A DNA stretch of 64,000 nucleotides from Daphnia pulex (Eukaryota > Arthropoda > Branchiopoda > Diplostraca > Daphniidae), in NCBI RefSeq assembly GCF_021134715.1, contig NC_060023.1, forward strand, positions 8,246,001 through 8,310,000, written 5' to 3'. Positions 13,270 to 50,200 of the stretch are shown here, one piece after another. Position 1 is the first letter of the stretch; each line of letters starts with the position of its first letter. The notes under the pieces were generated by a model, which saw only the letters and a list, made by a program, of their open reading frames with translations, did no database searches and was not told the DNA's origin. The translations under genes and the position numbers were made by a program.

Positions 13270-14837
13270 ATGGCGTCGGTTAGGACGGACGAATCTTTAC
13301 CTCCTGGTTTTCCGGCTTGGACTGTTGAATTGAATAATGCTGACGTTCCTGTTGACGAGGCACATGAAAACCCGTTGCCTTTCCAACCGTTGATCGTTTG
13401 TCTGCGATTCTTGGGTGTCGAACTCGATCCTGCAATCCTGAAAAAATCATCCAGGTGTTATCGTTACCAGTCCTTGTTGCTCGGACTAATTTTGCTTCTT
13501 TTGAATGGCCTCTGCAATATTTACATTCTGATTCTGAATCAACATCAGATGACTGAAAATCAAAATGAATCTGAGGTTTTATCGGTTATTCTGTCATCAG
13601 CTAATAACAACTATCAGCCAATAACAGAATCCAGCACAATGTCGTGGAATTTCATCATGGATTACGTCAACTATGTTTCCCTCGCTATCGGAGTTCACGC
13701 CTGCCTCTTCATTCTTTCTCGTCAACCAAAATGGGAATTGCTCTGGGACAATGTCCAGCAGACTTTGCAGCAGTTTAAAAACTGGAAGAAGACCATCCGT
13801 CGTGTCACAATCGCCGGTCTTTTCATTATTTTCTCGGTATTCAATCATATTTGTAGATAAATCACTGAAAGGTCTATTTTGTTTTTTCTTGTTAGGAAAT
13901 ATCGATCTATGTAGGCCTGTCCTTTCCCTTCGTGGAACTGACTGTGACTAATGACAAACAACTGTTCCGCGATTTATTTATTTGCTGCTTTGTAAACTTA
14001 TTTCTATTTTACGCGTTGTCTGGTCTGCTACTGTTTACCTTGATCGGCTGGACGGTGGCCATGGGATTCCGCAGCTTCGGCCAAGAACTAATTAGCAAGA
14101 GTTTGCTGACTAATACCAGCGATGATGACGCTTCGTTAGACGGCTTTCGTCTAATGATAATCAAGTGGAAAAAACTTCACATATTGTTAATCGACACTGT
14201 GGACGGAATCAACGATTGTTTCGGTCCGGTTCTTCTCATTTGGGTGTCTTATATCTTTGTCGGCTTCATCGCCTCTCTGTTTTACATTGCTGATGAAGTT
14301 TACTTTAATTCGACTTTGTCATATTCTAGCTGGGCCATGCTGATCATGAGCAGTGTCCAAGTGGCTCAGCATATTTTACATTTTCTAATTATCACCGGAG
14401 TACCGAATTGCATCCGTCGAGAGGTATACCGTATGTCCTTATACACAAATTGCGGGTAAATAATTTGAATTCCTTTTTTTTAAAGGCAATCAAATTGGGA
14501 AAGCTGCTAAAGCAAGTAAATCTATGCGACTCTCATCTTCAAGAACAGGTACGACGTAATAAAGTTTGTGTTTGTTGTATAATGGAATTGCAGGTTTTTA
14601 ATTTTAACAGGTGAACGTTTTGACGACCGAAGTGTCACTTTCCCTTCCTCGTATTACGGCTATGGAATTCGGCGACTTGAATTTGTCTCTGATCCCCAAG
14701 GTATTACATTATATTCAAAAAGCTGTGTACCGCAAAGAAATCGTAATTGTCAACATTTGAATTTGTCGCAGTTGATCGGTACTTCGTTGACTTATTTGAT
14801 TATATTATGCCAGTTCCGGTCGTTGGAAAAAAATTAA
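13270..14837 (+). CDS. Gustatory receptor, tandem paralogue
   Basis: Exons 13270-13836, 13896-14423, 14486-14548, 14611-14700 and 14772-14837 give 437 residues with the same five-exon, all phase-0 structure as the gene at 11183. Shared landmarks are LPFQPL, FLGVELDPA, YVNY, WDNVQQ, RRVTIAGL, LIDTVDGINDC.GPVLLIWV, LTTEV.LSLPRITAME and the final TSLTYLIILCQF. Divergence is highest in the first extracellular loop, as expected for receptors adapting to ligands. Its first intron (59 bases) contains a stop, unlike that of its paralogue. It is probably expressed in chemosensory neurons; this is family knowledge. Confidence 0.87.
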
Positions 14838-18829: not shown

Positions 18830-21800
18830 TTACATGATGACGCAAGGCATGGCACAGCAGACGGGAAGGCAGATGGGGATTACAGCAGCGCCACCGTACG
18901 CGCCTTTGGCACTCGACTCGGATTCGGACGCTTTGGCCGAATGTTTGGCGGCAAATTTCATTTTTCCTTTGGATCTGCCTCCCATTTTCTTTGATTTCTT
19001 TTCCAAGGTACGCGACTGTTTGCAGAATAATTTAAAAAAAATTAATCAACGGTATCGCATTGGCGGATTGAGCGGATTAATTACCAAAATTGGAACATCC
19101 TTCTTCGTGAACATTTTGTGATCAGGAGGATAATAAACGGGTGGTCCACTAGTGCCTTTCGTTGCTGGTCTTTTCGGTGTTTCTTTTACTATTAAAGGCT
19201 CGTCTTCTCCTTCTTTGACTTCCGGTTCGTCGGCCTTTAGGGGAAGTTGCGCAGTTGGAGAGGGAGAAAACACAATCGTTTGTGGATCGCCACGCGGAGT
19301 CGAAGTCAACGGCTACAAAGAAAATATGTTATGAGATGAATAGGAGTTTGTTTTTTTATAAATAATTTTCAGCTTACCCGAGTTGGACCGCCATTAAAGG
19401 TGGCCATAAGGTCGTCTAACTTTTTGGGCGGAGCTTGAAGCCCAGGATCAGGTGTTCCAAGTTTTCTGTTGGGCAGAGGTGAGCCAGTTCCCGACTGGTA
19501 AAGTTTCGGTTTGTTGGTCAATGGGTGAGTTGGTAAATTGCAGTAAGGCTCCGCAGGGCAATCACCAGCCAATCGAGGATAATCTAATAAAAATAAATAA
19601 ATTTAATTCTATGATACTCAAACATTTATTATTTTATAACGAATACCTGGATGAAAAGGTAAATTGCATAAAAGCTGAGGGTGTCCGGGTATGTTGCATT
19701 GTGGAGGCGAATTCAGTCCAATTTCACCGACATGGTCTGGAAAATTGGGATGTTTCGGAACATTGCACAGTAGAGCAGGGTGTCCAGGAACCGTGCATAT
19801 AGGCAGCGACAGCGGGCTGCTGTCGCCCATAAGAGTAGGGTAATCGTCATGGTAATGAACGTTGCAAATGATAGGCACAGGATCTGGAACTGGAGGTGAA
19901 GGTGACCGGGCAGTCAGAGGCGATGGTGTTGGTGAAGGGATTTGAACCTCCACGGTGGGTATAGGCGGGTGTCGGGGAACGTTGCATATCGGCACAGGTG
20001 GCACTTCACCTTCAGTCGTGTAGCCCGGGTAGTCAGGGTGGGTTTCAATTGAACAGAGCAGTTCAGGATGTGAAGGGATGAAACAATAAGGAGCGGCGTC
20101 TCGATCCTCTGGACCCATCAATTCCGGATATTGCGGATGCGTCTGGATGTTGCACAATCCAAAAGGATGACCGGGAACGTCACAGAACGGCTCAGTTTGA
20201 GGTTCAGTCAGTGACATATAATCTGGATATCCTGGATGTCCAGGTCTGAAAAATAAATAAGGTTGAAAAGTTAATTGCCATTTCCTAATTCTTTTCAATC
20301 AACTTCGACTTACATGTTACATTTTGATGGCAGTGGGATCGGGTCGTGCGGATGGCTAGGGATTGTGCAGACCAATCCAGCAACAGCCTCAGAGAATTCA
20401 GGCAATTCCGGATGAGTAAACTTTGGATAATCTGGATGTACACGGACATTGCAGAGCAGCATGGGATGTCCAGGAACAGTGCACAATGGTAAATCGTCAT
20501 TTGGTGTCGGAGTGTTGATATTGCCTTCGACTTGCACTGGCGGTTTGCTCGCCTTGAAGTCCGGAAAATCCGGATGTTCGGGGATGTTACATTTATCCAG
20601 GACATGACCGGGTACGTTACAGATAGTGTTGGGTTGTTGTCCAGTTGCCTTGGGGTTGCAATATTTCGGATAGTGCGGATGTCGGATGAAATTGCAAATG
20701 ACGCGCGGATGCCCCTTCGGGAGGTCAATGTTGCAGATGGGCTCGATCTCGGGCGGAGGACAGCGGGAGGCGTGTTTCGGATAATCGCTGTGTTTGGGCA
20801 TGTTGCACAACAATTCCGGATGCGAAGGAACGTTGCAGATCGACTCTTTGTCCGCCGGGGGGCAGCCAGTAGCGAAATTGGGGTAATCCGGGTGATGGGG
20901 ATAGTTGCATAAAATGGCCGGATGAACTTTGATGTTGCAAACGGGGTTCGTCGCCTGCGATCCTGTTGGACACGGAGGTGATGCGGCGTACAAAGGGAAA
21001 TTTGGGTGCCGCTCTGCGAATGGCAATTAAATATATGAGCAACAGAACCATTATAATAATAATAACAGAAACAAATTTTACCTAAATTACACATGGGCTG
21101 TGGATGCGACGAGACATTGCACAATAACCCTGCAGATTCGGGAATAATCCTAATATTGTACTTGGGAAAATCTTTGTGATCCTAGCGAAATAAAAATGCC
21201 AAGATGCTGATGACGGAACTGGAGAAACAAAGAAAACCAAAATACCGGGAAATTGCAGACGGGACTGTCGAGTTGCTTTTGAGTCATGGCTCCAGCAGCG
21301 GCACTCATGTGTTTGCTGTTGATGCGACTGTAATCGACCATCGTCGAATCCCCAGCCGTAGTGCTGCTAGTGCTACTACTAGACACCACTTGCTTCTTGC
21401 TACTGCTACTGCTGCTGCTGTAACTGTAAAATTCGCTAGTAGAACCCGAAGTCACTTTCTGATTCGACGATTGATTTCCTTCATTTCTTTCTTCATTTCC
21501 TTCGGCCAGTCGAACTGATTTCTTGACTTTGTTTTGTTCTTTCTTGTTGCTCGACAATAAATCGATGCAATCAGGGATCATCTGATTGCCGATATCGACC
21601 ACAACATTGTTTAAAGATGAATCAACCTTATCTCCGCCAGATCCAGAAGGTTTTTTCTCTTGGTGGCCAGTGGTAGACGTTTTAACAACTTGACTCTTTT
21701 TGACCACCGTTTCCACTTCACCACCGCCGCCGCCATTAGTTACATGTGAGGCTCCGCCTTTCTTGCTGCTACTGCTGGTCGTTTCCTCCTTGAAACTGTA

Positions 21801-23335
21801 CGTCACTCCTCGAGTGCTCCAGGCTTTGGCTCTCTGCATAGTTAATCATTTCCAATTTCCAATTATTGGTTTAATTATCTCGGATTATCTCGCAATGAGA
21901 GCTATTAAATTCGTTTAACAATTACATCGGAAACGGATGGAGGAGTAGCCTGGAAGGCTTCGGCATCATCCTCGGATGCGGCTGTTGCGGGCATTCCTAC
22001 GAGAAGAGAACTTTCGCCGTGTGTTTTGTTGGACGAGTGATACTCGCGGTATTCCCTCTGCTGCGAACTCGAACGACTGCCACTTCCGGACAACGCCTTT
22101 CCAAACGGTCCCTCCTATTTTTAATTAGATTCCGGAATGATACGCAAATCAATGAATAATGAACAAGTGACTTGAATCCTCACGTTGTAGGGTTCAATCG
22201 GATGTAATGGCTCTGGCGATTTGGATCTAGTAACTCTGGCGGATGAGGAAGCTTGCTCCGAGACGGCCGAAGTGTCAAATAAGCGACGGGCAACCGACGT
22301 CTGGGCAACGGCCTGTTCCGCTAGGTGTTGGTTAGCGGTTCCGCTGGTCCTGACAGATTTGCTGGACGATTGATGATGGACGGAAGTCGCGTAAACTGGC
22401 GAATCTTTGGCTGCAGCTGCTTCTACCTTGGGTGGCACCGTTTTCCTTTGAGGTGAAATACTCCGCTGGAGCTCATCCAGCATCCGATCTAAATAGAGAA
22501 AAAAGCATGTCCCCATTACAACGACAACAAACACAAAACTAAACGACGAGAAAAACCTTGAAAACGGTACGGAAATAGAAAATAGGTAGCTCTCCTTTTA
22601 CAGATGAGATTCAGGATAGAGAGAAATGAGGCTACGAGAAGTCAATAAACACTGCAAAAAAAAAAAGGTTGGGGAAAAGTAGATGGAAGAACTGCACAAC
22701 CAAACAGTAAATAGGACCAAACCAAACAACAACAGCAAAAAAAAAACGGGGGAAATCACCACGCCAGACCAAGAATAGAACACCAACAGTAGCAGAAATA
22801 CAGAAAAAGAAAAAATAATATAACCCAATATGATAATAGTGTAGGTTTCAATAACTACATGAGGTAAAATGCGTCAGGCAAACAACATATTCTCCGTATA
22901 TATTCTTTCCACCACCAAAGATCTGAAAGTGTTGAGAAGAGAAATGAAATTGGCCAAGATCCAAAAGGGGGAAAAAAGATGAAACCAAAGTCAAACCAAA
23001 AAGATAAAAACTAGTCAAAACAAATGAATCGGAAAAATATAAAGTGATGCTGAAGTATAGGAAGTTTTTTTCTTTTTGCTACGTATATTTGCCTCTGTCA
23101 ACACAAAGTTGTTCCTACCTAACTTTGTGTCCCATTCGGAGACGGGATACAGTGGCTGGTGAGGCTCTAAGGAGGAAACATTTTCTTCGACCGCAATTTG
23201 ATTATTGCTCGTCAACGACTGGTGTTGTTGTCCGGAAGAAGACTGCTGCTTGCTGCTGCTGCTGCTTCTTGTTACCGTCGTCGACGTCTGGGAAAACTGC
23301 TGGTGATGGTGGACGTCGCCCGTAGACGAGGCCAT
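18830..23335 (-). CDS. Paralogue A: long CNxxxHP-repeat protein with a C-terminal CVIM prenylation box
   Basis: Ten exons read downwards (23335-23119, 22488-22184, 22114-21926, 21833-21246, 21181-21082, 21013-20314, 20245-19647, 19583-19378, 19312-19085, 19015-18830) join to 1105 residues. Residues 1-430 are Ser/Gln/His-rich with islands PLYP-SEWD-KLG, DRMLDELQ-SISPQRK, QQREYREYHSSN, RAKAW and SPVCNFP. Residues 430-920 hold about twelve paired repeats, C-N-x3-H-P-x3-C-N-x3-H-P-x-Y/F-P, spaced by Pro-rich links; the regular C-x4-H-x4-C-x4-H order looks like a metal-binding knuckle. The tail is basic (GKMKFAAKH), then Cys-rich and ends CCAMPCVIM, a textbook CaaX farnesylation box. I do not recognise the family. 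A membrane-anchored, zinc-binding scaffold is my inference. A paralogue lies at 32688-36894. Confidence 0.83.
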
Positions 23336-24228
23336 CTTTATCGACGTCGCAGTTTTTCTTTCTCAATCAACCACTCAGCGACTCTAATATTATCTAATGG
23401 ATTGCACACACAGAAATATAACCTGCTCAGATCAACACAATCCAATTGACTGTATCGCATTTCAAGGCTGTCATCATCAATGCACATATATGTGAAAAGA
23501 ACGAGAATATATTAACAAGGTTGGACCCTCCTCCTTTATCGGGTGGGGCCGGGCGAGGAGGAGTACGAACGTGAGCCAACAAACAAACCCAAATGCGTCT
23601 TATTATTATAGTGTCCCGACCTTAAATCAAATGGGAAAATGGAATCAAACGTCAGATTGGGAATCTTTTTTTGGTAGTTTCCCATTTTTCAGGAGGTTTC
23701 AAGGAGTTTGCTCAAGTCCAGATGTGATTGGAATACGTTACGTACGTCAATCCGGATAGTTATACACGCTGCACGAAATCAATGCCTCCCCCCTTTGTGG
23801 AAAAAGAAATGGACATGCGAGACTCATTGCACACGAGACCTTGGACCTCCCATCAAGTTGACCCTCGCTGGATTGATTGGATCCGCTTCACGCAATGCCG
23901 GAATTCCTTGTTTCGGGTTCAAAAGTTATCAGCTGAGACCCAACTCGATGTCCATTCGTCATTTGGTTTGTTCACCTTGTCAGTGGAGTCTCGTGCCAAC
24001 CATCTTCCGTTTAAGGAAATGAAAAAAGATAACCAAAAGAACAAAAAAGATCCGATCACAAGTTCCTGCCTTATCAGTTGATCACTAAATCAAAAGAGCA
24101 AAAACTGTACAGATGCAAGAGAAACCCTTTAATGGAATAGAACCAAAAAATAAAAAGACGTTCGACCTTGGTCCAGTCACGAGAAACGCCTCTGCGCCTA
24201 CGTAATGTATGGCGGCTGGAAGCCTGAA
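23336..24228. other. First part of the upstream region of paralogue A
   Basis: No coding region is supported. By comparison with paralogue B this is probably intron between a non-coding first exon near 25.2-25.5 kb and the coding start at 23335. Open frames here lack motifs. Confidence 0.35.
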
Positions 24229-24266
24229 GCCGTGCCGCGAAATATCTCAACATTCAAACGAGTAAT
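24229..24266 (-). promoter_or_regulatory. Conserved upstream block 1 (copy A)
   Basis: About 38 bases starting GCCGTGCCGCGA and including CAACATTCAAA recur with a few changes at 37523-37560 in front of paralogue B. The flanks are not alignable, so the block is selectively kept or recently converted. It is non-coding in all frames. Confidence 0.6.
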
Positions 24267-24486
24267 TCTTTTTTTGTATTTTAACCCGCTCCACTGTGTA
24301 CTAAAGGAAAACGCGGTGGAAGCCAAACCAAAACAAAACAAAAAGAAGGGAAGCCGCCGAGGTTAAACAGAAGAGATCCCAAAAACACGTCGGGATTTCT
24401 ATTCTCATAGTTGGATCGGCGCAGCAGCGGGAGATGGGAGGGATGTGTGTTGTAATGGGCAACCGAGCAAACGGCGCTGCTCTGAC

Positions 24487-24504
24487 GCGATCTAATTTTA
24501 AACC
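24487..24504 (-). promoter_or_regulatory. Conserved upstream block 2 with MEF2-type site (copy A)
   Basis: The 18 bases GCGATCTAATTTTAAACC are identical at 37828-37845 upstream of paralogue B. They contain CTAATTTTAA, which fits the MEF2 consensus YTA(A/T)4TAR. A muscle or mesoderm role is a guess from the site alone. Confidence 0.55.
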
Positions 24505-25039
24505 AGGTGATGCATCAAGGCGCCTGATTCATTCTCGTTGCCTCGCCAGTCGAGTGTAGAGCTCAACTGCAACCAATAACACAAGACAGACACACACACA
24601 CAAAAACCCGAACGATCTAGATCATTTTCAGTTTGAAAAAGAGTCGAACAAAATAACAGGGCGGGATTTCACGTTTTCTTCCTCCTCAATTATATAATCT
24701 GACCCATAGTAAAGGGAAAAAAAAAAGAAACCCATCCATCAAGTGCAAACCTCCCCACCCACAACAACAACACAAAAAAGCGAGATGTACACCTAATGCA
24801 ATCTCATCCTTAAAAACGCGCAGACACAAAGAAATTTTTAAAGCCGAGGTAGAGTTGGAAACGATCATCATTTTACATTGGCCTACCGCGTGTTATTATA
24901 CGCTAGCGAGTAATAATCTGAAGAGAAAAAAAAATGAAGGGGGGGATTTCACTTTCTCTTTTCTCCTTCTTTTATGTTCGCGGCAGAGAGTCGGAGCGCG
25001 GATCTTTTTGGCTCTTGTTTGTGGCAGACGCGCAACCAG

Positions 25040-25064
25040 AGTCCAAGGCTATGACCAAAGATGG
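25040..25064 (-). promoter_or_regulatory. Conserved upstream block 3, 25 bases identical (copy A)
   Basis: Twenty-five bases beginning AGTCCAAGGCTATG and ending CAAAGATGG are identical to 38236-38260 upstream of paralogue B. It lies about 165 bases from the proposed splice donor of the non-coding first exon. It is the longest perfectly conserved non-coding stretch I noticed between the two genes. Confidence 0.65.
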
Positions 25065-25226
25065 CCCGTGTGCACTCTATCGGCTGCACTGCACACACAC
25101 AACAACAACATCAACCTTCTTTTCTTTTTACCCTTTCGACCAGGTAAATTCTCCAGGTAAAAATGGAATGAAACTGGTTTATAAGAAATGACATCAAAAT
25201 CAACAGAAAAAGATGACGTTCGATAC

Positions 25227-25505
25227 CTGACGGAAACGGTGTTGTCTCAAAATGGATCCAGTTCCGGTTGTGATGTCGATTTTGTTTGTTAATCCAGTTG
25301 TTGCGCTATTGATGGCGAGTCGGATCCGATTAACGACACTGGACGGTATTGTCAACAGTTGGCCAATACACGAGACAAATAAATTTGTGTTTTCCCCTTG
25401 GAGTTGGTGGAAAAAGGAGGTGCGTGTTTGCTGCTGCCAGCGAAGGCGAGAGACCAACTGCGACTGCCGACCCGATGCCAGACTCCTCCTCCTTTTTCTT
25501 TCTAT
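25227..25505 (-). promoter_or_regulatory. Proposed non-coding first exon and start region of paralogue A
   Basis: On the minus strand a donor (CAG, then GTATCG) at the lower edge and shared sequence such as CGGGTCGGCAGT (near 25470) are mirrored in copy B at 38474-38772. The shared pattern of a conserved stretch ending in a splice donor fits a 5' UTR exon spliced to the ATG exon at 23335. The transcription start is not determined. Confidence 0.4.
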
Positions 25506-28500
25506 ACATCGCCCGTTGTCGTCTGTTTAAGGAGTCGAAACGATAAAGGAAAGAATGAAAAAAGGGATAAAAATATTTTGAATCTAAAAGAATGAGAGAA
25601 AAAATATGTAAACAACATCCAACCCGAAATATCCAACAAGACTAAATTCAACCGATATGTGGCGGCCAGATGTGCTCCTCAACTGTTGTCAACTGGCTGC
25701 TCCCCAACGCCAGCAGGCCGTCTTGATTGAATAACTTCATTTACCTACAAAATATGATCGAGCCGGTCATGATGGAATTCCTGCACGAAGATCGATTGAG
25801 AAAAGGAACAAAAAAATAAAATACAAAAGAGCGGATTGTATCGGCATGTTAGAGACGGCGCCAGTTGTATTGGCTAATTCCATCGCCGCCCGTGTCGGTC
25901 GGCTCGACAACCGTCCGTCCAACAACATTAGCCAAACATGGACGTATCTACGAATAACCGTACGACGTTGGAGGCAAACGTCAAACAACAAGTACTGCGC
26001 CCATCTGTTTAACATCCGCAGCACTCACTCGTTTGACACTTGTTTGTCGTCAAAGAACAAAAGGATTACGCAATAAAAATCCTTCAAAAACTCTAAAGGA
26101 AAAATGTTTTAGGGCTGTGGCTGGTCCGGCCAACACCAAATCAAACATTCACACAAAAGCCTCAAAGCAACGCATGCAAGATGGGCAATAGTTAGCCAAT
26201 GCAAATTTGCAGACGAAAAGGTGTGGTCGAATGCATTTTAAACATTCGTTGGCACAGGTTTCTACCTTTCACGCTCCGTGGGATAGCACAAGGAACTTTC
26301 AGAAAGTCCACCGTTCGGTTATAATTATCAAACAGCACGAACGCGTAGTATGTGTGTCTGATGAATCTGGGGAATCATTCCGGCCATCCAGCCAACAGCA
26401 GCGAGGCGCATTCTATACAGCAGCGTCGTGATTCACGAACCATGCACGCCACCACGGTAGGATAACCGTTGGCGGTGTTGGATTTTCGTCTATTTCACTA
26501 ACTTTCGGAATTTTCCCCCCATCGAGCGATGGTTGAATATTATAAGAGCAGCTATAGATAGACGCCTTATAGAAACACCCACGGACAGTCTATCTGGGCA
26601 TAGGATGTAGGGCTTTTAAAAGTAACCGGTAAAAGTAGTTGACTCATCATCGTTGCGAAGTGGGGGGAAGGAAGCTGGATTCGTTTTTCTCTTGGAAATT
26701 TGCCCACCGCGCTTTTGTGATCTCCACTGCTTGCATTGGCTCCCTTACCCTTTGCAACCTACTCAAACGACCTCAATGGATAGGGGCCATTTTATGCACG
26801 GCAAAAAAAGAAATAACGAAAAAGTAAAATCGGGTTCTAAATTAGAACAAAACAACTTGTTGAAAAACAACAACTTCGAATGATTTGGGGGCTGTTGAAG
26901 GCAGCTGTGATTTCCGATCAAGTGGATACCAAGTTGGAATGTTAGTCTACGTCCAACCTATAAAAGGGGTGACACGGCGAAACAGCTGGTAATTAATTCC
27001 CATTCAAACAAGTTCAAATGTCAAGAGTAGTGCCGGCTAGCCGCAAAACACACGATCAAGTGATTTTCATTACATTATTGGCATTTTATACAGCACGAGC
27101 TTCGGGAGAAATTCAACAAGTCAAGAGTGGGATATAGCGGCCAAGGTCCGCTGCTGCGCTGTCAAGTGCTGCCGAATCAAAAAGTTTTTAAAAGGTGGCA
27201 AGGCCGTTGCATGCTAAACATCCAATCCGTGTCACGACCAATAACGCTCAGAAAAAGCGATAAAAAACCTATTAGCAAATGGAGAAGTAAAAAAGGAAGC
27301 TGCCGCTGCTGTTGCGTGGAATTCAATGGAAAAAGTGGGTCACGACACGAACAGCTTTTTTCGAGAATTTCAATAAATAAAGTCACACGATGGAAGAAAA
27401 AAAAGTCCTTATAAAATGAATGTTGACCATCAGCTGTTGAAGGAGGAATCAAAAGGCCCAACAATGTCACATTCAACAGGTGGCCGGCCGAGGATGGAAA
27501 GCGAAGGACGTTATAATTCTCTACGACCTTTTAAGTGTGGCCTTAACAGTTGGGCGACAAGGAAATCGTGACTGGGCATCATCAACATGTTTACGTTTCA
27601 GCGATTAACCAATTTAAAGACACATTTTAGGCCTATGATGGATAAATCGTTGATAAAAGAGACCTGCCATAACTCTGCAATTTAAAGCTCGCAACAACAC
27701 TACCCACTGAAAGAAACAAAATCAAAGTGAATTAGTATGCAGGGCCACTTGTATGACGTCATTTGATAAAAACGACAGGGAGAAAACTTGTTGGGCCATC
27801 ACCCAAAAGACGGGAAAAGAAGTGGGTATAGTAAATAATAAAAGAAGGGCGTTGTTTTCAGGTGACGCCCTCGAGACCTTGCACTAGCCGAACCCTATAA
27901 CAGTCTATGCCCATGTATGAATGCGTCCAGGCTCTTAATTTTCTCCCAAGGAAGGGGGAAACGCGGACACAAAAGTTGAAAAACCAACAGAGTTGACTCC
28001 AAGCGACAATTGACAACGCACCCGTTTTCTTCTAGTCAATAAAGAATTCCAAGAATCTGAATTACACAAACACATTGGGAAATAACGAAAGCTTATCGAT
28101 GCCAATTAAGTCGCTGTTATCCCAGCTGTTTTGACAATCCCGATTTGGACATTCTTTTCCTCTCGTGCAAAGCTGCAATCTCGCCATAAAAGGCAATGTC
28201 TTTCGTCTTATCTTTCCTTGTGGGCAACAAAACATAACAGTGCACGGTTCTTTGCCTGGTCGCCACCAGTTCGCTATAAAGTTATTGGCGCCGGCGTCTT
28301 CCCATTTTGCTCGTATACATACTGTCTTTGTTTCCCCTCCAGCTCCTTATACAGTATGATCAATCTCTACGACGCACTACAGGTGGAAAGGTAAAGAAAA
28401 AGAAGTTGGCCATCATATCCGCTGCCTAGCAACGATTTTACCAGATCCATTTAAAACAAAAACAATTTTCGTTGACGTCATGTTGAGTTGTCGTCACCGT

Positions 28501-28526
28501 CGTCGGCAATCCGCCAACGCGAGTAC
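25506..28526. other. Far upstream region of paralogue A
   Basis: Non-coding, with two further blocks shared with copy B: 26359-26440 (contains GTCGTGATTCACG, as at 39103-39115) and 28341-28372 (contains CTCCTTATACAGTA, as near 40997). Their order matches copy B. Between blocks I see purine-rich low-complexity DNA and no gene. Confidence 0.45.
28341..28372 (-). promoter_or_regulatory. Conserved upstream block 6 (copy A)
   Basis: A stretch with CTCCTTATACAGTA then GATCAATCTC recurs at 40994-41027 upstream of paralogue B. It is the outermost shared block that I found and sits about 5 kb from the coding start in A and 4.1 kb in B. Confidence 0.5.
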
Positions 28527-28640
28527 AAGAAACAAAAAACAAAACAAGACGGAAGGACACAAAAAGTAGCGAATTTCCGTTACCTTATTGGTTCCATGGG
28601 TTGAAATTATTTATCCGCGGTGAACTAAAGTAGATCCATA
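28527..28640 (+). repeat. Direct repeat flanking FBXL5, upstream copy
   Basis: About 110 bases containing GCGAATTTCC, TTACCTTATTGG, GTTGAAATTATTTA and GTGAACTAAAGT match 31928-32034 in the same orientation at roughly 80 percent. The two copies bracket FBXL5. It is either a short dispersed repeat or a scar of the rearrangement that placed FBXL5 between paralogues A and B. Confidence 0.65.
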
Positions 28641-29190
28641 CATGGAGTCATTATTAGTACGATCACTCCCATACAACAGCGGCCGGCAGCCATCTGCGTA
28701 ATAATCAATGAGACCACAGTCCATTTTTGTGACATTTTGGACAATCTATTATTACATGACGTCAATTCTTGGCCCGTGACATACGTAGAGACCCCGCGTA
28801 TCAAGCAAAGTGTTTTCTTGTTTCTATTCAATGGCCACTTTTGTCATTCATTTTAACGCCATATCTCACGGAGAATTCATTTTTATAAAACGGTTGCTTG
28901 GTTACAATAATAGAAAAAAAGGAAAAATAACAGGAAGTCTCTTTGTTCTCGGCGATTTGTAACGTGTGACGAGAGAACAGTTTCTTGAAATGTATGAAAG
29001 GAAAGAATTTGATCGATTTTTGGGGATAAGATTATTTGACGTATGCGTTTATCTTGCAATGCTGCTTTATTTACTTCGCCATTCTATTTTCTACGTCAGT
29101 CCACGTAAGAGACGAACAGCTGGGAGATATTCAATTGAATTCATTAAGATAATTTATTTATCAATAGTGTATTAGTGTCACTTTTCGAAA

Positions 29191-31178
29191 ATGGCTCCGA
29201 AATTCCCTGATGAGGTCAACGTCTTTTTGGTTCCACATTCTCGAATGAAGGATCTTGTCGGCAATTATATGGATCAGGTATCTTTTCCTTATTATTGTGT
29301 AGTGCTAATTAATTGTGTTTATTGTATGTGTCTACTGCTAGCTGTCTACAGCAGATTTTCGCAGCAATGGTGCCCTGGAACATCTACTTCCTCTGCTGGA
29401 GAACACCTTCAGCGAGTTTAAAAGTCACGAACACATTGAGAACCAGTACATTCTGGAACAGCTGAAGCAGAGGCTCAAATTGGTCAATGTCACCAGCACA
29501 TCTGTTTGCAATTGCCATGGAGACAGTCAACTAGTTGAGGTGATTTTCATTGCCAAATATTCAACTCTCATTTTTATCCTGACCCAACGTCTTTTGGGTA
29601 GATCCTCAACTTACTTCGTGATGGATACACCTGCACCAGCAAGCCCATCTCTGAGCGGATCAGTTTTGGTTCCCAGCTGCAGAAAGTTGTGTCGGATTTC
29701 ACCCAGCATTTCATCCCCCACATGCAGGAAGAAGAGGAAATCTTCCAGCCGCTTCTCATGAAGTACTTTGCCCACGAAGAGTTGCTGCAGCTCAAACAGC
29801 AGGTCATCCAGCAGCACGAGATCTGGAAGGAGAAGCTGGTGGCCCAAAAGGAAACGGCCGAGAACATGCTGGCCCTCCTCAATACGGTCGCATCAGAGGT
29901 CACCGATTACCGGTCGGGCAACGACGAAGAGTACCAAGAGACTCTGCAAACACTCGTGGAATTGACTTGCGAAAACTTGACGAAGAATAACAAGATCGAG
30001 AGGGAAAATGTTGTGGAAGCCGGCTTCGACAATCTCCCTCAAGAGATGATGCTCCACATCTTCTCCTACTTGAACCCGCTCGACAGGACCCGATGCGCCC
30101 AAGTTAGCAAACACTGGAATATGCTCATCTACTCGCCGCAATTGTGGAAGGTGATCTACCCGACCAACTGGGCCAAGGGCCACTACGATTTCCAGTACCG
30201 CGATCCCTACACCCTGGTGGAATCGGAATGGAAAAGCAAGTCCATGATGGAGGATAACGACGATTTAATGAGCGATTCCGAAGAACCTTTGTCATCCGAG
30301 GCCGAAAAGGAGATTCGATGCTACGAAAAGTGAGAAACAACAAAAATTGGGGGGAAAAACCATGAAATATTTTAAAATTTTATTTATTTTTTTTTTATTT
30401 TAAATGATTTCAGGTTTACTATGAACGCCTTGGTTCGTATTGGCGATGGTGTTCAACGTGTGGTGGTTGCAGGTGGTCTGAATTTGAGTAGCACCATCTT
30501 GCGTTCAATGTTGGTCCTTTGTCCCAATATCCAGCACCTCGACGCCAGTTACACCAACATCACCGACTTATCTTTCAAGGGGTTAGTTTGTGGGCACACA
30601 AAGTCCAAAGATTAAAATCAATAACACTTTTGATTGGCGTTATTAGATTGGCTTTGAAGAAAGCCTGCGTTCAATTGGAGCATTTGGATCTCACCGGCTG
30701 CCGCTACGTCACCGACGTTGGCCTGGAACGTCTAGGCAACTGTTTCAGGTCGGAACTGTCCGGAAGCTTTTACAATTCCAGATGCGGATCATGTTGTCAA
30801 TCGTGCAAAAGCTGCCCGAAATATTCTGATCCGGTGTCGTCCGCCTACAACAGCAATTCCAGTTTGGCGGAAGAGGACGTTTTTTCGCCTGGATTGCTGT
30901 ATTTGAGCTTATCCGGCTGCACGTCCGTCACCGACTTTGGACTGCAATCCTTGCTGGAAGTCACCATGGAGAAAGAGAGTCTGCACTACATGGACCTGAG
31001 TGGCTGTCCACTGATTTCAGGGCTGGGCCTCCAGATGATCACCGAGCATTCGTCCCGTCTACTGCCGGAAGATCTTTACTATTGCAATCGAATCCAGGAG
31101 GGGCCCTATCCGGACGAAGCCAACGGATGCCAGAATTTAGAGTGCCCGTTGAGAGGTTGTTGCTGCATCGATCAGTGA
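29191..31178 (+). CDS. FBXL5: F-box/LRR protein 5, iron-sensing ubiquitin ligase subunit
   Basis: Exons 29191-29277, 29342-29539, 29602-30329, 30414-30581 and 30647-31178 give 570 residues (human 691). FBXL5 is the substrate adaptor of an SCF ligase that degrades iron regulatory proteins when iron and oxygen are present. The N-terminal hemerythrin-like domain keeps the diiron ligand positions: PHSRMK, SHEHIENQYI, CNCHGD and PHMQEEEEIF. The F-box follows near 275 (LPQEMMLHIFSYLNP). LRRs include LEHLDLTGCRYVTDVGLE and LYLSLSGCTSVTDFGL. The C-terminus YYC..GPYPDEANGCQNLECPLRGCC keeps the four cysteines known to bind a [2Fe-2S] cluster in the human protein. The shorter length reflects a reduced linker between LRR blocks. 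It lies between the two CNxxxHP paralogues on the opposite strand. Confidence 0.96.
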
Positions 31179-31927
31179 AAAAATACTCTACGGATGTTGC
31201 GTTTCTTTTTGTTGTTCCGGTTTTTTGGGTTAATGAATTCCTAAAACAAGTTCGTTAGTGTGCCATTTGATTGTGATAATGATTTGGCATGTCGTTTCTT
31301 CCTTGTAGGATCGCTTGTTTAATTTACAGATTCGATTTTTTACGGTTTTTCATTCTATTTCTGGTCAAAGTTATTCACAAATAATCTGTCGATGGCTCGA
31401 TGCGGTTATATATAATTGATTGTCATCATGAATATTAGGTTGATAATACTCGAGAACCTCAAATGTTTTAAATTTCAAGTTTAGATATTACAACAGTTTC
31501 TAGGATCACACAAAACTGGTCTAAAAAAAAAGACAAAATCAAACATCGCTTATTCTCTCTTGGTTTATTGGCGTTCTTGATTTCCTTCTTCTTCAGAAAT
31601 ATATCAAAACATATTAATTAAAGTCATTTTAGCGACAGATATCGATCGGCGAATGTCATTATTGGCTATTTAGACCAGCTCCAACAGTTCTAGCAAATTC
31701 TTGATCCTTTCCCTTACGGAAAAATCTCATCAAACTATATGAGTAATCATATGTTTTTTAATGACAGAAATGATTTTTTAATAATTTTACATGATCTCAT
31801 ATATTTCTCATTAAATTGATGAAAATTTTCACCCTCATATTTATCATTAAAAATGTTTAAAATATTTTTTTCTCACTTTATGTGAGATATAACCCAATCC
31901 ATAGTAGGAAATCGTATCGTCCAACGA
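31179..31927. other. FBXL5 3' flank
   Basis: AT-rich DNA that should contain the FBXL5 3' UTR. No coding signal is seen. Confidence 0.35.
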
Positions 31928-32034
31928 GTACATGAAACAAAAAAAAAGGGAGCCGAAAAAAAATAGCGAATTTCCCTTACCTTATTGGTGCGATGAGTTG
32001 AAATTATTTACTTGCTGTGAACTAAAGTGGATCC
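31928..32034 (+). repeat. Direct repeat flanking FBXL5, downstream copy
   Basis: Second copy of the element at 28527-28640, same orientation, with GCGAATTTCC, TTACCTTATTGG, GTTGAAATTATTTA and GTGAACTAAAGT. Differences are scattered substitutions plus variation in the A-rich leading part. Confidence 0.65.
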
Positions 32035-32140
32035 TTCGACCACGATATAAAATCAAAGGTAGGCCTACACTCTCGCGCTATTTCAGTTTCTTGGAAGAAA
32101 CGGCGGGTGTTTAGTAAAGGGTCCCAAGATTTCCCGCCAG

Positions 32141-32220
32141 GTTACGTTGTTACGTTAAGTTAACGGAGCCAAAAAAGGGTCCGTTAACGCATGTTTTACG
32201 TTATCCGAGTTAAACGTAAC
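32141..32220. repeat. Imperfect inverted repeat (possible fold-back element)
   Basis: The left arm starts GTTACGTTGTTACGTTAAG and ends GTTAACGGA; the right arm starts TCCGTTAACG and ends GTTAAACGTAAC, separated by an A-rich loop. The arms pair best at their outer (GTTACGTT) and inner (GTTAACGGA) ends. It could be a small fold-back transposon remnant or a chance hairpin. Confidence 0.4.
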
Positions 32221-32687
32221 ATCACTAAGTAATAGTCCTTATAGTTTTAGCTAACAAAGTTAGGCGAACGGTCTGTTTGGTTTGATATCATGTTGCTTAA
32301 GAATTCGAGCGAAATAAAAAAGAAATAGCTAATTAATAGATGTTTATTAGGTTACATCAATAATCATATGCTGGATCATTATTTCATACATTATCTTTAT
32401 TTCTTTATTTCAACTTCTTAAAAGCCACCTAAACGTCACAAACGATGTTACCATCAATATATAAGCCAAAAGAACAATTCCCTGTGTATGTCTATTAGCT
32501 TAAAATCAGCAAAAATCCGATGAATAAATTCGGATACTGTCTAACGTAGATCATCGCTACGGAATCGCTTAAAAAGTTACATCAACTGTCGAGGAACTTC
32601 TTTGCCATGTTACTGCCAAATATTTTTTCCGCAATTTCATTATTATTTGTGTTAAATTTAATCTGTTTTAGTCGTTGTTTTAATTGT

Positions 32688-35600
32688 TTACATAATGACA
32701 CAGGGCATAGCACAACAGACGGGAAGGCAAATGGGAATGACGGCGGCACCACCAGCACCTGCCTTAAATTTGGTATCCGATTCAGAGCCGCCAGCAGAAT
32801 ATTTGGCAGAATACTTCATTTTGCCTTTGCCTCCACCTCCCATAGACATCGAATGCGATTGTTGCTAAAACAGATAAATTTGAATTAAGCCAAGAAACGA
32901 AATTCAAATCTGATTTTAAATAAGCTACCATTAGGAGTGGGGCATCAGGAGGTGTTTTCGTGAACATGTCGTTGGTTTCTGGTGGATAATAAACGGGAGG
33001 GCCGCTGGTACCGTTAGTGGCAGGTCTCTTGGGTGTTTCAGAGAATAAAGGCTCCTTGGGAACCAAAGTTGTTCCATTCGTTTCGTGAATAGGAGCAGAA
33101 AATGGCGTGGGATCGGCTGCCACACGAGGCGTCGACGTGAATGGCTGAAAGTTCCAATAATTGTTGTGTATTTGTCCATTCTTAATGAACAAGATCTTTA
33201 CCTGGTAGGGGCCACCGTTGAACGTATCCATCAAGTCGTCCAGTTTCTTGGGAGGCGATTGGAGGCCAGGATCCATTTCTGGGCGTCTGATTGTCGGCAG
33301 AGGAGAACCACCGATCCCTCGTTGGTACATTTTAGGTTTAATGGTTGTCGGTATAGCATAAGGACTGGCAAAAGGATCCTGCAGATTTGGAATCGGCGGA
33401 TTTCTCCTTACAGCCGGGTGTCGAGGAACATTACAGATGGGCTCTGAGGGCATTTCAGCTTCAGTCATGTAACCCGGGTAGTCGGGGTGAGTTTCAATTG
33501 AACAGAGCAGTTCAGGATGTGAAGGGATGAAACAATAAGGAGCGGCGTCTCGATCCTCTGGGCCCATCAATTCCGGATATTGCGGATGCGTCTGGATGTT
33601 GCACAATCCAAAAGGATGACCGGGAACGTCACAGAACGGCTCAGTTTGAGGTTCAGTCAGTGACATATAATCTGGATATCCTGGATGTCCAGGTCTTCAA
33701 CGATAAAATAAAAATATTTAAAATTCAGGCACTTTTCAAACGAACTATTAGTTATACGGTATGTGAAATTTACATGTTACACTTAGAAGGCATAGGACTT
33801 CGACCGTGTTGATGGCTGGGGATTGTGCAGACCAATCCAGCAACAGCCTCAGAGAATTCAGGCAATTCCGGATGAGTAAATTTTGGATAATCTGGATGTA
33901 CACGGACATTGCAGAGCAGCATTGGATGTCCAGGAACAGTGCACAATGGTAAATCGTCATTTGGTGTCGGAGTGTTAATATTGCCTTCGATTTGCACTGG
34001 CGGTTTCTTTGCCTTGAAGTCCGGAAAATCCGGATGTTCGGGGATGTTACATTTATCCAGGACATGACCGGGTACGTTACAGACAGTGTTGGGTTGTTGT
34101 CCAGTTGCCTTGGGGTTGCAATATTTCGGATAATGCGGATGTCGGATGAAATTGCAAATGACGCGCGGATGCCCCTTCGGGAGGTCAATGTTGCAGATGG
34201 GCTCGATCTCGGGCGGAGGACAGCGGGAGGCGTGTTTTGGATAATCGCTGTGTTTGGGCAAGTTGCACAACAATTCCGGATGCGAGGGAACGTTGCAGAT
34301 CGACTCTTTGTCCGCCGGGGGGCAGCCAGTAGCGAAATTGGGGTAATCCGGGTGATGGGGATAGTTGCATAAAATGGCCGGATGAACTTTGATGTTGCAA
34401 ACGGGAGTTGTTGCCTGTGATCCTGCTGGACACGGAGGTGATGCGGCGTACAAAGGGAAATTGGGGTGGCGCTCTATAAATGGCAATAAAATAGATGAGC
34501 AACTACCAATTTCAATAATAAGAAAATAAATTCACCTAAATTACACATGGGTTGTGGATGCTTTGCAACATTACACAAGAGCCCCGATGATTCGGGAATA
34601 ATCCGAAGATTGTACATTGGATAATCTTCGTGATCCTGATGAGATAAAATGTGAAACGGTTCAATGACAAAATGTGAAAACGTTTAATGTTAATTATTAC
34701 CGGAAAATTACAGATGGGGCTATTGAGCTGCTGTTGCGAGAGTGAATGAATTCCGGCGGCCCTCATCTGCCTTTGATTGATCCTTGTGTAATCAATGACG
34801 TGATGATGGTGAGTGGCAGACGCTAAACTAGACGAGCTGATTGACATGGATTGCATTCGATTATCGGCCCCCGTTGACTGGATCGGCATTTCGGCGGATT
34901 CGGAGGTGGCAGCTTTGCTGCTGCTACTGTAACTGTAAAACTGTTGTCGACTGCTGCTAGAGCTGAAACTATTACTTCCAACAGTTCCAGACTGCATCAC
35001 TACCGGGGCAGAAGCGCCAGATGATTGGACGTGTTGAGATTGATGCGTATGCGATTGGACCATCGTCCGGACGGATTGCTTTTCTCTGTTTTCCAACACT
35101 GGAGCCTGCTGCTGGGTTGACCTAGTGGCCATTTCGCTCACAATCATCAAATCTTGAAGTGCCGAATCAATTTCATCCGTTCCATATCCCAACGGTTGTT
35201 GACCATTGGAAGACGTTTTCACGAGTTGGCTCTTTTTGACGACCGTTTCCACCTCGCCATCGACTCCGGTACCACCGATCTTGCTAGTGCTGGTGGATTC
35301 CGACGCAAAGTTGTAAGCCACACCTCGACTACTCCAAGCTTTAGCTCTCTGCAAGGGAAAAAGAGAGTGAGTTGAAACAAAAAAATTGTAAACATGAGCT
35401 GTAAGATTTCATTTACATCCGAAACGGAGGTCGTGGCTCCTTGAAAGTCATCGTCGGATCGTCCGTCGTCGACTGACGTGGACGAAGGCATTCCCACAAG
35501 GACAGTTCCGCCGCCGTGAGTTTGGTTGGACGAGTGATACTCGCGGTATTCACGTTGCTGCTGGGAACTCTGCGACCGAACGCTGCTGATGCTGCCACCT

Positions 35601-36894
35601 CTCGACAAAGCTTTGCCGAACAGTCCGTCCTATATTTCAAACCAATCCATCAACTTTGATTCGGTTTTTTAATTTAGGATTGGACGGACTTACGTTGTAC
35701 GATCCCGTCTGAGGAATGTGTTGCTCCGGCGATTGGGACCTGGCGGCTCTGATGGAAGCAGGACTGGCCCCTTGATCCAGGGAATGATTGGACGCAATGG
35801 ATGAAGTGTCGAACACCCGACGGGAACTGGATGGTGTCGTCCGGTGATGTTCTTGATGCTGACTGGTGTTGCTGGAGCTCACAGTTTGCCTCGACGATTG
35901 GTGATGAGACCCGGAAGTAACGGAATAAGAAGATGACGTGTCTTTGGCTCCCACACTCCCAGCACTTCCTTCGATCCTGCTCGCAGAAGTCCCAGCTTTC
36001 CTCTGCGGCGAGATGCTCAGCTGGAGCTCATCCAGCATCCGATCTGCACGACAAACGACAGCGCAATCAACAACAGTCAACACAGGCAATCCAATTTTAA
36101 TTAAGATTGATGTATAGTTGTTTTAAAAAATGAGAACAGATGGTAGGTGAAAGTATGGAAAAGGTAATTTAACAGCGATAATACACAAAGAGAATTTGGG
36201 GATAGAAAAAAAAGAGGGTCAAATTGAAAGAGCAAAGAGACCGACAGACACATTCCAAGAATAGAACGTGACTCGATACAGAAAGAGCGCTATATAGCCA
36301 ACATACCGACGAACGGAGGGGACGAAAACAAACCAGTAACATATAATCAGTTAACGTACTTATTGCTATAACACTGGTATGTGTACACAAGGTTAGACAG
36401 GAGACAGGACGGACTCGAAGCGGATACTTGACGTTTCAACTAGAGCGTTATTTGCATAAACTAATTATACAAGTCGACACAGAAAGCGAGCTGCTTTCAC
36501 TTTCGAGAATTGGAACCCAACTGGCGAGAGATGTAGAAAAAGCAGCTTTGTAAAATCAGCCGGAAATGACGACTCGCCGAGTTAAAATGGAATGGATGGG
36601 TAAAGAGTTATTTTTAAAAATCGGAAGGGGGGGGGGGCAATCATTACGCCATAACCATCTAATCTTCGTATGATGAAAGAAAAAAGAAGCTAGCTAACCT
36701 AGCTTTTGATCCCATTCAGAGGCGGGGTATAACGGCTGATGAAGTTGTGCTCCGTGATCTTCTTCGACTTCGACTTCATCGTTATCATATCCGGAATAAT
36801 GTTGTTGGCTCCACGATTGCTGGTGGCGGCTGCTGCTGCTGTTGACCGACGATGTCGAATAATGGTGCTGCTGGATATCTCCCGACATCGCCAT
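32688..36894 (-). CDS. Paralogue B: CNxxxHP-repeat protein with a C-terminal CVIM prenylation box
   Basis: Nine exons read downwards (36894-36699, 36043-35694, 35629-35417, 35348-34701, 34635-34536, 34473-33774, 33694-33202, 33144-32929, 32864-32688) join to 1030 residues, with intron positions and phases matching paralogue A. The N-terminal islands (PLYP-SEWD-KLG, DRMLDELQ, QREYREYHSSN, RAKAW) and the repeat array are shared. B lacks the last three or so repeat pairs: where A has two exons (20245-19647 and 19583-19378), B has one shorter exon. The last exon ends AAVIPICLPVCCAMPCVIM, as in A, giving an identical CaaX box and upstream cysteines. The 700-base exon is almost identical in DNA to that of A, while the Ser-rich exons have diverged strongly. 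Family and function are unknown; inference is as for A. Confidence 0.83.
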
Positions 36895-46099: not shown

Positions 46100-47260
46100 T
46101 TAAAATGTGGGTATGCCGGGGTTTGTCAACGTCATCATTGATATGGTCTTCCCATTAGACTGCCTAATAGTCGTTATTAAATCGCTGGCTTCGGGTATCT
46201 GTAATTTCCGTTCAAATTTCGTCATTTTGGCAGCCGATGATCGACATGCAATTGGAGGAACTACGCCCGCATCAGGAATCATATTTAATTGACTCCTGAC
46301 TCGAATGAAAACGTTGGGCTTGCTGTTCTTGCTCTCACAGTCGGCAGATATGTCGCTCTTACTGGCTATTGCAATCACAAACCACCTTCCGCACTCCTTA
46401 TTGTAGTAGTTCATCGGTCCCCCGACATCGCCCTATTTCAACGATACAATGTCCATTTTTTTAACGCTTTCAAATAACGAAAGTTGAAGGATAATTACAC
46501 TGCAAAAGCGACGGTGTTGTGATCCGTCGCCGCAAATGATTTTTTCACCGGAGAACGGGCCTATGCCGGCTTCTTGTTGGCATTGCTCATTGCTTCCAGT
46601 TGAAGATATGACCGTCGTAGTGGTTTTACGCAAAATGCGACTTATTGCAGCATCATCATAGTCACCCCATCCGGTAAGGACCACGGGATCGTCAACATGA
46701 TCTGGATCGTCTCCGAACGGTAGACACGCTGGCTGGACGTAATCTGATTAATAATTAAGCGGAATTAATTAGATTACATAAACAATTCAATAACATCAGT
46801 ATCTGCTTTAAAACTACTACTAATACACATCATGTAGACAATATAAATAACGGCTAGAAAAATTTATTACCGTTTAGCTCAACAGCATTGCCAAGGGTTA
46901 CGATGCTGAGATAAGCGCTGAGCGAATTATTCAATATGACATAGGAAGCGATTGAATTCCGTTGGGCGATTTGGCGGAAGCTGTCGCTGCTGTTCGCGTT
47001 CAAGTCATGAGCGCCCAGGGTAATGTTCAAAATATCAACAGCAAACAATTGGTTTTCAAAAAAGCCTCGAAAAAAGCAGTCGGATGTCGTCAGGATATGT
47101 CTATCACTGATTAGGGTTCCGCCGCAATGAAACACTTTTTTGGTCACGAAATTCTGAACGAGGATGTACACCATCCAGGGGAATTCGTTGGGCTTTGCTT
47201 CACTCCCTCCCACGATCCTCGACGTCGACGTAAATTTCGATCGACATCATTCAAAAGACG
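46100..47260 (-). pseudogene. Serine protease homologue module 4 (triad Asp/Tyr/Val) with an early stop
   Basis: The first exon reads SFE, then TGA (47247-47249) where the other modules have the Cys of ECGR, then CRSKF and RIVGGSEA, so the zymogen cleavage site is the most canonical of the four. TTSDCF replaces TAAHC (His to Asp), SAYLSIVTL replaces the Asp motif, and GDVGGPM has Val for Ser. The stop is a substitution, not an indel: spacing to neighbours is unchanged. Unless read through or skipped, it removes this module. Confidence 0.55.
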
Positions 47261-50200
47261 CTGCAAGTTTAAAATTACACAATAAAAAAAGATAATTAGT
47301 ATGTCATAATAATAAGTTACTTAGACTGCGGGCAGTTGTAGTGGGGATTTCCGTTACCGCAGCTGTAGGGTTAATCATCGGTGTTGTCTGTTTACTCTTT
47401 GCTCCAGTCGATTGGCATTCGATTGGACTAGAATCCACGCCCGTGTTACGACGGATCCAGTCGAGGTGGCTCCTCACGCGGGTGAACACGTCGGTTCTCT
47501 TGCTGTTCTGGCAGCTCGCAGAAGCGTCTCCTTTACCGGCTACTCCGATGATGAACCACCTGTCGCATTCTTGATTATAAAAATTCATCGGCTCCCCAGC
47601 GTCGTCCTATCACGAATCGACATTAATTGATTTTTCGCGGTGAATTTTTTACAATAAATTATTAAATATTTTACGTTGCAATAGAGACGATATCCTTCAC
47701 TACAAATGACCTTATCGCCAGAGAACGGACCCACTCCTGCCTGCTGTTGGCACGTTGAATTGGGGCCGGAAGAAGATATGACGGTTGTAATCGTTTTGCG
47801 CAAAACGGAACGTGAATTTGCGTCCCATCCGGTGAGGATGACGTTGTCATTCACGTGATCCGGATCGTCTCTTAATGGTAGACACGCCGGTCGAACGAAT
47901 TCTGTGTAAGAGCAATAGATGATAAAAAAAGAAATTTGAAATGGAAATTATCTTGGAAATGTTTTACCGTTTAGAATGGCAGGTTGGCTGAGAGTTATAA
48001 TGCAAATCCCGTTGCCTATTGGACTATCGGTACTGCTCAAGGCCTTGATGGCACTCCACTTGATCGTTTGACGAAATCGGTCGCTGCTGTTGGTACTCAT
48101 GTCGTGAGCGCCCAGGGTAACGTTCAAGATGCGGACTCCGAAAGTGTAATCCGCATTATAGAAACAGTGGCCGGCCGACAGGACATGGCGGTCGGTAATG
48201 AGAGTGCCCCCACAAGTAAATTGGTTGCCGCTAGTTTTATTCTGAAGGATGAAGTGAACCATCCACGGGAACTCGCTGGGCGTCGCCTCAGTTCCTCCAG
48301 CGATCCTCCAGGACGAAGTGAATTTGGTTCTCCCACATTCAAAAGGCGCTGCAACGGTGCAAGTTTGATGGCTGAGTGCATTATCTCAAATTAAAAATTC
48401 TAATCACGTTTAGAGATGGATGGCTCCGTTGTGGGGATCGTCGTCTTGGGAGATGGGCCTGTAGTTATGGCAGACTCGGCCACTGTCGTCCACTGACAAC
48501 TAAACCGGTCTGTTCCATTGAGAATAGCGGTGATGAACATTCTGCTGCCCTTTGAAGTGTAAACTCTGTTCACGATCGGATGGTACGTAAGAACGTTCGA
48601 TTCGTCGGCGAACTATAAGTTAATCAATAAGAAATTAAGTACAATTACTAACAGAATTACTAAAAGAAATAGTTTACCCGGCAGAAAATAAAAATGGTCA
48701 TAAAAATAAATAGACTCACTTTCAATAGACTGGAAGTAATTTTGAGTTGAATGTCCGTGCAAGATATTTGTACGACCTGGTCGGAAGGTGCGTTGATGGT
48801 GATCCAACACGTAATAGGTTCTGTTAAGAATCCAGCAAGGGGTTGAATGATCCCACTGGCTGCTGTTAAACTGGAGTCACAGACTGAAAAGGAATTTCGA
48901 TTATCCAACATTTGAAATTGAAGTATAAATGTCAATCAAATCACGTCTAAGGTTTGGTGTTGACGCTGATGTTGTTGTTGACACTGATGTTGGTGCTGCC
49001 GTAATTTCAGGTGTCATCGTGGGTGTCGCCGTCGTGGGCGTCTTCGTTAATTTGCATTGCGAGGGACTAACTATGCGCGTGAAAAGAAGAATCGAAAAAA
49101 GCTGACTCCTGACACGAGTAATTAGGTTGGGCTTGTTGCTGTTCTGACAGTTGACGGAAGCGTCTTCAATCCATCCTGTTATTCCGATAACAAACCACCT
49201 GTCACATTCCTTGTTGTAATAGTTCATCGGCCCTCCAGTGTCACCCTATTAGTTGATAAAATTGCATCCAGACGATAAAACCAAAAATGAATTGAATTAT
49301 TGTCGGTTATACAGAGCAATAGCGTTGAGATCCATCGCTGCAGATAATATTGTCACCGGAGAAAGGACCCAATCCTGCCTGTTGTTGGCACGTTCCATCG
49401 CTGCCAGACGATGATATGACAGTCGTAGTCGTTTTGCGCAAAACGGAATTCGAACCGGAAGCATTGTAGTCTCCCCATCCGGTAAGGACCACGGGCTCGT
49501 TCACGTGATCAGGATCGTCGTCGAACGGCAGACATGCCGGTTGAACGTAATCTGATGTACAAAAATGGGAATTATAATGTGTATGTTTTTCCATCACACT
49601 TTTAATTGTTATTATGATCACCATTTATAGTAACTGGATCTTTAAGGGTCATAATACTACAATAGTTGTCCATTAATGAGCTATTTAATCGAATGTATGA
49701 AGACATTGAACTCCAGTGAGCGATTTGGCGGAAACGATCGCTGCTGTTGGCGCTGAGGTCATGAGCGCCCAAAGTGATGCTCACAATATTAACGGTAAAC
49801 ATATTCGCGTCAAAAAAGCAGTAGGAAGACATCAGGATATGTAAGTCGCTGACAAGTGTGCCTCCACACGTGAAGTATTTCCCGCTTGTGTAATTGTAAA
49901 TGAGAAAATGCACCATCCACGGGAACTCGTTAGGTGCCGCCTCGGTCCCTCCCATGATCCTCGACTTCGACGTGAATTTAGAGCGGCCGCATTCAAAAGG
50001 TGCTGCCATATTCAAAGAAATATTTTAGTTTACAGCGTAGAAATGAGAATGTTGATATAATCGTATCTAACCAGGCGTTGTGGCAATGGGGATGGACGTC
50101 GTTGTAGGGATATTTGTCGTCATTGTGGGAGAAGTTGTCTCCTCCACCGTTTTTCCATCAGACTGTCTAGTCACAGTAATTATCATCGGCGATTGCGTCG

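Follow-up and report, generated by a model that had tools for sequence, protein, structure and literature searches.

Two paralogous genes encode proteins whose middle part is a long, regular array of cysteine and histidine units, 26 in one protein and 20 in the other against a maximum of 8 in shuffled sequence, and no family in the collections searched matches their architecture with a significant E-value. The genes, here called A and B, lie in a window of 64,000 nucleotides (C7:8246001-8310000); the genome totals 133,188,837 bases over 13 contigs. The Cys-His module may bind metal, and the two proteins could be prenylated, membrane-anchored cytosolic scaffolds with 10-13 metal-clasped loops, a tentative reading to which we give a little less than an even chance.

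Gene models, conserved islands and C-terminal tail

The models of both genes were spliced using conserved motifs together with GT/AG sites and are predicted from the sequence. GT/AG sites are present at all nine introns of A and all eight of B, neither model contains an internal stop, and the two proteins are 69% identical in a whole-protein alignment. The coordinates given in the first-pass annotation are correct: A, which like B is on the minus strand, ends at 18830, and B starts at 36894.

18830..23335, minus strand: gene A, predicted spliced model of 10 coding exons, 1105 aa
23335-23119, 22488-22184, 22114-21926, 21833-21246, 21181-21082, minus strand: gene A, exons 1-5
21013-20314, 20245-19647, 19583-19378, 19312-19085, 19015-18830, minus strand: gene A, exons 6-10
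32688..36894, minus strand: gene B, predicted spliced model of 9 coding exons, 1030 aa
36894-36699, 36043-35694, 35629-35417, 35348-34701, 34635-34536, minus strand: gene B, exons 1-5
34473-33774, 33694-33202, 33144-32929, 32864-32688, minus strand: gene B, exons 6-9

Between A and B lies an unrelated F-box/LRR gene on the plus strand, with open frames at 29689-30333 and 30519-31178; its F-box and leucine-rich repeat matches span 29689-31178, on the strand opposite to both paralogues. Elsewhere in the window, a 7tm chemosensory receptor-like frame just below the Pfam cut-off occupies 13932-14459 (plus strand), at least three consecutive trypsin-like open frames occupy 46857-51454 (minus strand), and a VWA-domain frame is found at 61822-62991 (plus strand, E 1.5e-33). 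None of these neighbouring frames was seen to be related to the Cys-His proteins.

A and B share one layout. The N-terminal part runs from a Ser/Gln/His-rich start through PLYPxSEWDxKLDRMLDELQxSISPQRK and QQREYREYHSSNxTHG to SVSDRAKAWSxRGVxYxF, the middle from GEVETVVKKSQxVKTS through a Ser-rich stretch and the Cys-His array to PPKKLDDLMxTFNGGP, and the C-terminal part from ETPKRPATxGTSGPPVYYPP through MGGxxKGKMK to the tail. The best conserved islands and the tail, as compared between the two genes, are the following.

22442..23155, minus strand: A, N-terminal island PLYPVSEWDTKLDRMLDELQRSISPQRK across intron 1, containing the LD-like LDRMLDEL; 25/28 aa in common with B, 11 silent changes
35997..36735, minus strand: B, counterpart of the N-terminal island across intron 1, from the A/B comparison
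22016..22063, minus strand: A, island QQREYREYHSSNKTHG; 15/16 aa in common with B, 3 silent changes
35513..35560, minus strand: B, island QQREYREYHSSNQTHG, counterpart of the A island at 22016..22063
19384..19431, minus strand: A, second LD-like island PPKKLDDLMATFNGGP, C-terminal of the array; 15/16 aa in common with B, 11 silent changes
33208..33255, minus strand: B, second LD-like island PPKKLDDLMDTFNGGP, from the A/B comparison
19124..19183, minus strand: A, island ETPKRPATKGTSGPPVYYPP (the GPPVYYPP island); 19/20 aa in common with B, 12 silent changes
32980..33039, minus strand: B, island ETPKRPATNGTSGPPVYYPP, counterpart of the A island at 19124..19183
18833..18895, minus strand: A, C-terminal tail GGAAVIPICLPVCCAMPCVIM with the CaaX box CVIM; 21/21 aa identical to B, 11 silent changes
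32691..32753, minus strand: B, C-terminal tail, the identical 21 residues, from the A/B comparison

Weaker islands also exist, such as DYxRIN, with 8 of 14 residues kept and 3 silent changes. The islands and the tail, where they lie outside the homogenised tract described below, are under selection, their amino acids being kept despite silent changes. SEWD-KLG and DRMLDELQ had been listed as separate islands; they are actually one, interrupted by an intron, and read SEWDxKLDRMLDELQxSISPQRK when spliced, the G of KLG being an artefact of translation continuing into the intron. The YREYHSSN island is present in both proteins, as claimed.

The N-terminal islands were found at the first pass, but two LD-like motifs had been overlooked. 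Each protein carries two of them, one on either side of the array. A relaxed LD pattern, devised after the motifs were seen, matches twice per protein versus 0.05 times expected per shuffled protein; the strict consensus LDxLLxxL has no match in A or B. LD motifs are described as short helical segments with FAK FAT, vinculin and parvin as binding partners (PMC7703752). When the two LD-like islands were used as queries against the PDB, paxillin was not found; one island gave no match, and the other matched apolipoprotein A-IV (E 0.014) in several weak, scattered stretches.

Both proteins end in a C-terminal C-a-a-X sequence, CVIM, preceded by the cysteine cluster PICLPVCCAMP; the architecture had first been reported without this tail, which is common to A and B. 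CVIM is described as the CaaX box of KRas4B, and in yeast reporters it is reported to be fully modified by human FTase and also by GGTase-I (PMC11152559). In A and B, the CVIM cysteine is probably prenylated, with farnesyl favoured.

The Cys-His array and its register

The arrays occupy the following positions.

19525..21257, minus strand: array of A with its introns, covering aa 430-919; 13 modules from 26 units
33418..34712, minus strand: array of B with its introns, covering aa 466-828; 10 modules from 20 units

C-x4-H is counted 25 times in A and 19 times in B, and one further unit per protein has the form C-x7-H (CNIDLPKGH), which completes the totals. When each array region (521 aa in A, 417 aa in B) was shuffled 20,000 times, C-x4-H reached a mean of 1.96 and a maximum of 8 for A, and a mean of 1.42 and a maximum of 7 for B; against these values, the repeat arrays noticed in the two paralogues at the first pass are real. 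C and H are kept in all 46 units of A and B, an invariance that is partly built in, since the units had been located by C and H.

The units are of two types in strict alternation, b (CNxxxHPxYPxF) and a (CNVPxHPxLL). Distances from b to a in A are 18, 22, 18, 18, 19, 30, 22, 17, 17, 17, 17, 17 and 15 residues, and those in B equal the first ten of this series. The spacer from a to b is four residues in 10 of 12 steps in A and 8 of 9 in B; the exceptions are a spacer of 10 in one step of both proteins and a spacer of 34 in one step of A. Because both arrays open with b and close with a, a b-linker-a register uses every unit (13 + 10 modules), and the spacing argues for a module that is a loop, C-x4-H-x(15-30)-C-x4-H, rather than a tight a-b pair. 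The earlier description of ten to twelve paired units is only loosely true, as the strict form C-x4-H-x4-C-x4-H occurs nine times in A and seven times in B; the regular Cys/His units stand, but the tight register gives way to the looped one.

The tight unit first drawn, in which a and the next b form a short zinc knuckle, is possible but unlikely as the metal site. The x4 spacer is steadier than the loop of 15-30 residues, and the a-b junction, C-x4-H-x4-C, is spaced like the final three ligands of the CCHC zinc knuckle (C-x2-C-x4-H-x4-C), but the initial C-x2-C of that knuckle is missing in A and B and the full pattern has no match. Under tight pairing, two units in both genes, the opening b and the closing a, also stay unpaired, and the series is interrupted twice in A and once in B. 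The tight unit is disfavoured since the a-to-b spacer stretches to 10 and 34 residues, yet all ligands are retained.

Across 16 aligned modules (13/13 of A and 3/10 of B), C1, H6, P10, C25 and H30 are invariant, while pairwise identity between the 13 modules of A has a median of 42% and a maximum of 58%. Given such divergent modules, the array is judged to be old and constrained to its C/H frame. Additional cysteines in the b-to-a linkers, five in the array region of A and four in that of B, fit no role in the metal-loop scheme. Proline makes up 107 of the 521 residues of the array region of A, and with this high content the array may stay unfolded, which counts against a view of folded loops.

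Database searches and a putative scaffold

No significant relatives were found in the Pfam, NCBIfam, PDB, viral, phage and prokaryote collections; UniProt, InterPro and arthropod genomes lay outside the scope of the search. With whole proteins, Pfam gave no match for A and, for B, AAA_30 (E 0.024), below the cut-off and outside the array, and the Pfam profile comparison that had been proposed at the first pass gave no confident match to a described domain. NCBIfam, queried with the array of A only, and phages, searched by tblastn with exon 6 of A only, gave no match. In viral contigs, the full-protein alignment yielded 79 pattern stretches and the module alignment 46, with 0 confirmed in both; in genome contigs, the search yielded 41, with 0 confirmed. 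The signature strings of A and B had no match in the searched literature. 'Undescribed' therefore means absent from the collections searched, and orthologues are likely to be labelled 'uncharacterised protein' elsewhere; such proteins, similar at the N-terminus and with a CCAxPC tail, may exist in insects.

Several candidates from these searches were rejected. RUBY_RBDX (E 0.086) and KNOX1 (E 0.1), each matched by one module when 16 modules were run singly against Pfam, were taken as chance, as were the AAA_30 match of B, Proteasome chaperone 1 (E 0.45; PDB, array of B) and five Cas12k entries (E 0.31-0.32; PDB, module profile), a second module-profile search being without match. A short DNA pattern run against the own genome hit 431 places versus 259 for the reversed control and was too unspecific.

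According to the scaffold reading, the C terminus would be prenylated at the CVIM cysteine, probably with farnesyl, and would hold the protein on a membrane, with the preceding cysteines perhaps palmitoylated. The middle part would form a flexible, proline-rich chain with 13 loops in A and 10 in B; in every loop, two C-x4-H pairs 15-30 residues apart would hold the single metal ion that closes it, with zinc the likeliest metal. With its short constant spacer, usually x4, the array would present a row of small rigid knobs for avidity binding of partners, and the LD-like helices on either side of it would recruit partners. We infer metal binding, prenylation, cellular location, partners and the pairing of units from the protein sequences. 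Metal is favoured over disulfides on account of the presumed cytosolic place and of the N-termini, in which no signal peptide was seen by eye.

A disordered Pro-rich linker that binds no metal is unlikely, though it accounts for several features. In such a linker, the short motifs CNxPxHP and HPxYP would bind partners as linear peptides, and the cysteines may be lipidated or redox-active. Pro-richness is strong, the linkers are variable, family and fold matches are absent, and a lipid anchor is likely in any case; however, linear motifs need no Cys and His at fixed distance, yet 46 of 46 units have both. A far-diverged version of a known zinc finger (LIM, CCHC or rubredoxin-like) is very improbable. 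One of the 16 modules touches RUBY_RBDX at the chance-level value given above, but C-x2-C and the LIM-half pattern are absent from A and B, and the C2H2, CCHC, CCCH, RING, CHHC and C2HC spacings, tested as patterns, have no match in either protein. Together with the lack of a significant match in Pfam or the PDB, this upholds the earlier claim that the repeat corresponds to no zinc finger that can be named. Hardly credible, too, is the view that A and B are structural proteins outside the cell with cross-links formed by Cys and His: secreted materials often contain repeats rich in Pro, His and Cys, but the N-termini carry no signal peptide by eye and the invariant CaaX tail is of a kind that acts in the cytosol.

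Among known systems, Prickle combines PET and LIM domains with a CaaX box. Like it, A and B have Cys/His modules and end in a prenylation box, but the Pfam scan of both, up to E 1, contained neither PET nor LIM. KRas4B, which shares the CVIM box, carries a poly-lysine stretch before it, whereas A and B have their cysteine cluster there. The proposed scaffold logic of LD-like helices with a row of Cys/His modules recalls the paxillin family (LD motif: PMC7703752). A and B differ from that family in lacking LIM domains and C-x2-C, in being LD-like only by the relaxed pattern and in their CaaX tail, and no sequence match was found.

The fuller proposal is a new metal-loop repeat in which two C-x4-H clasps, one metal and a Pro-rich loop varying from 15 to 30 residues make up the module. 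In this design, 10-13 loops would lie between two LD-like helices and a prenylated C terminus, as an independent counterpart of LIM scaffolds such as paxillin. We consider this proposal unlikely as a whole, although it keeps an appreciable share of the probability. If the module binds metal, it would be one outside Pfam-A whose long arrays contain hardly any secondary structure, and the variable loops between fixed clasps would amount to a natural display system. LIM arrays are the known solution for lipid-anchored scaffolds, and metal loops, if true, would be another. If it does not bind metal, the proteins still represent a repeat family that is uncharacterised and clearly subject to purifying selection.

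Duplication, homogenised tract and third copy

In the comparison of A with B, exons 1-4 and 8-10 (A numbering) have dN of 0.28-0.48 and dS of at least 1.0 or saturated, which identifies the pair as an old duplication. Values are lower in exon 5 (dS 0.68, dN 0.12), exon 7 (dS 0.32, dN 0.07) and exon 6 (dS 0.156, dN 0.022), and purifying selection acts on exon 6. The near-identical tract and the one large difference in module content are located as follows.

19960..21030, minus strand: A, tract near-identical to B (exon 6 and early exon 7), from block identity; limits approximate
33409-34490, minus strand: B side of the near-identical tract, from block identity
B 33202-33694 versus A 19378-20245, minus strand: module/intron difference, B without three modules and one intron

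In alignment blocks of 100 columns, identity is 89-100% across exon 6 and 99-100% in the two opening blocks of exon 7, most values being 96-100%, whereas the block that contains the intron between exons 6 and 7 is 60% identical. This intron (A 20313-20246; 68 bases in A, 79 in B) is diverged and lies outside the homogenisation. The array was probably homogenised between the old paralogues by gene conversion; homogenisation limited to exons and sparing an intron is unusual, and odd for plain gene conversion; it would be accounted for if the intron changed afterwards or if the events were separate. The first pass was right about two paralogues but had overlooked the homogenised array. Modules 11-13 are absent from B as whole modules, together with one intron, and no half modules occur. 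A pair in which one member lacks exactly three modules, with a homogenised array, allows both the boundary and the function of the module to be tested.

A search of the own genome with the plain proteins matched at least the window and one place on C5, a partial third copy.

C5:1664449-1666026 (L004 1395-2972): partial third copy, with a stop in exon 7

One b unit of this copy lacks its His (CNIQTLP), so that one of its five complete units is broken versus none of the 46 in A and B, a small number that carries little weight. The copy is 96.6% identical to B over exons 7-9 and 91.9% identical to intron 6 and early exon 7 of A. It is a broken mosaic, with an A-like intron 6 followed by B-like exons 7-9 and 3' flank.
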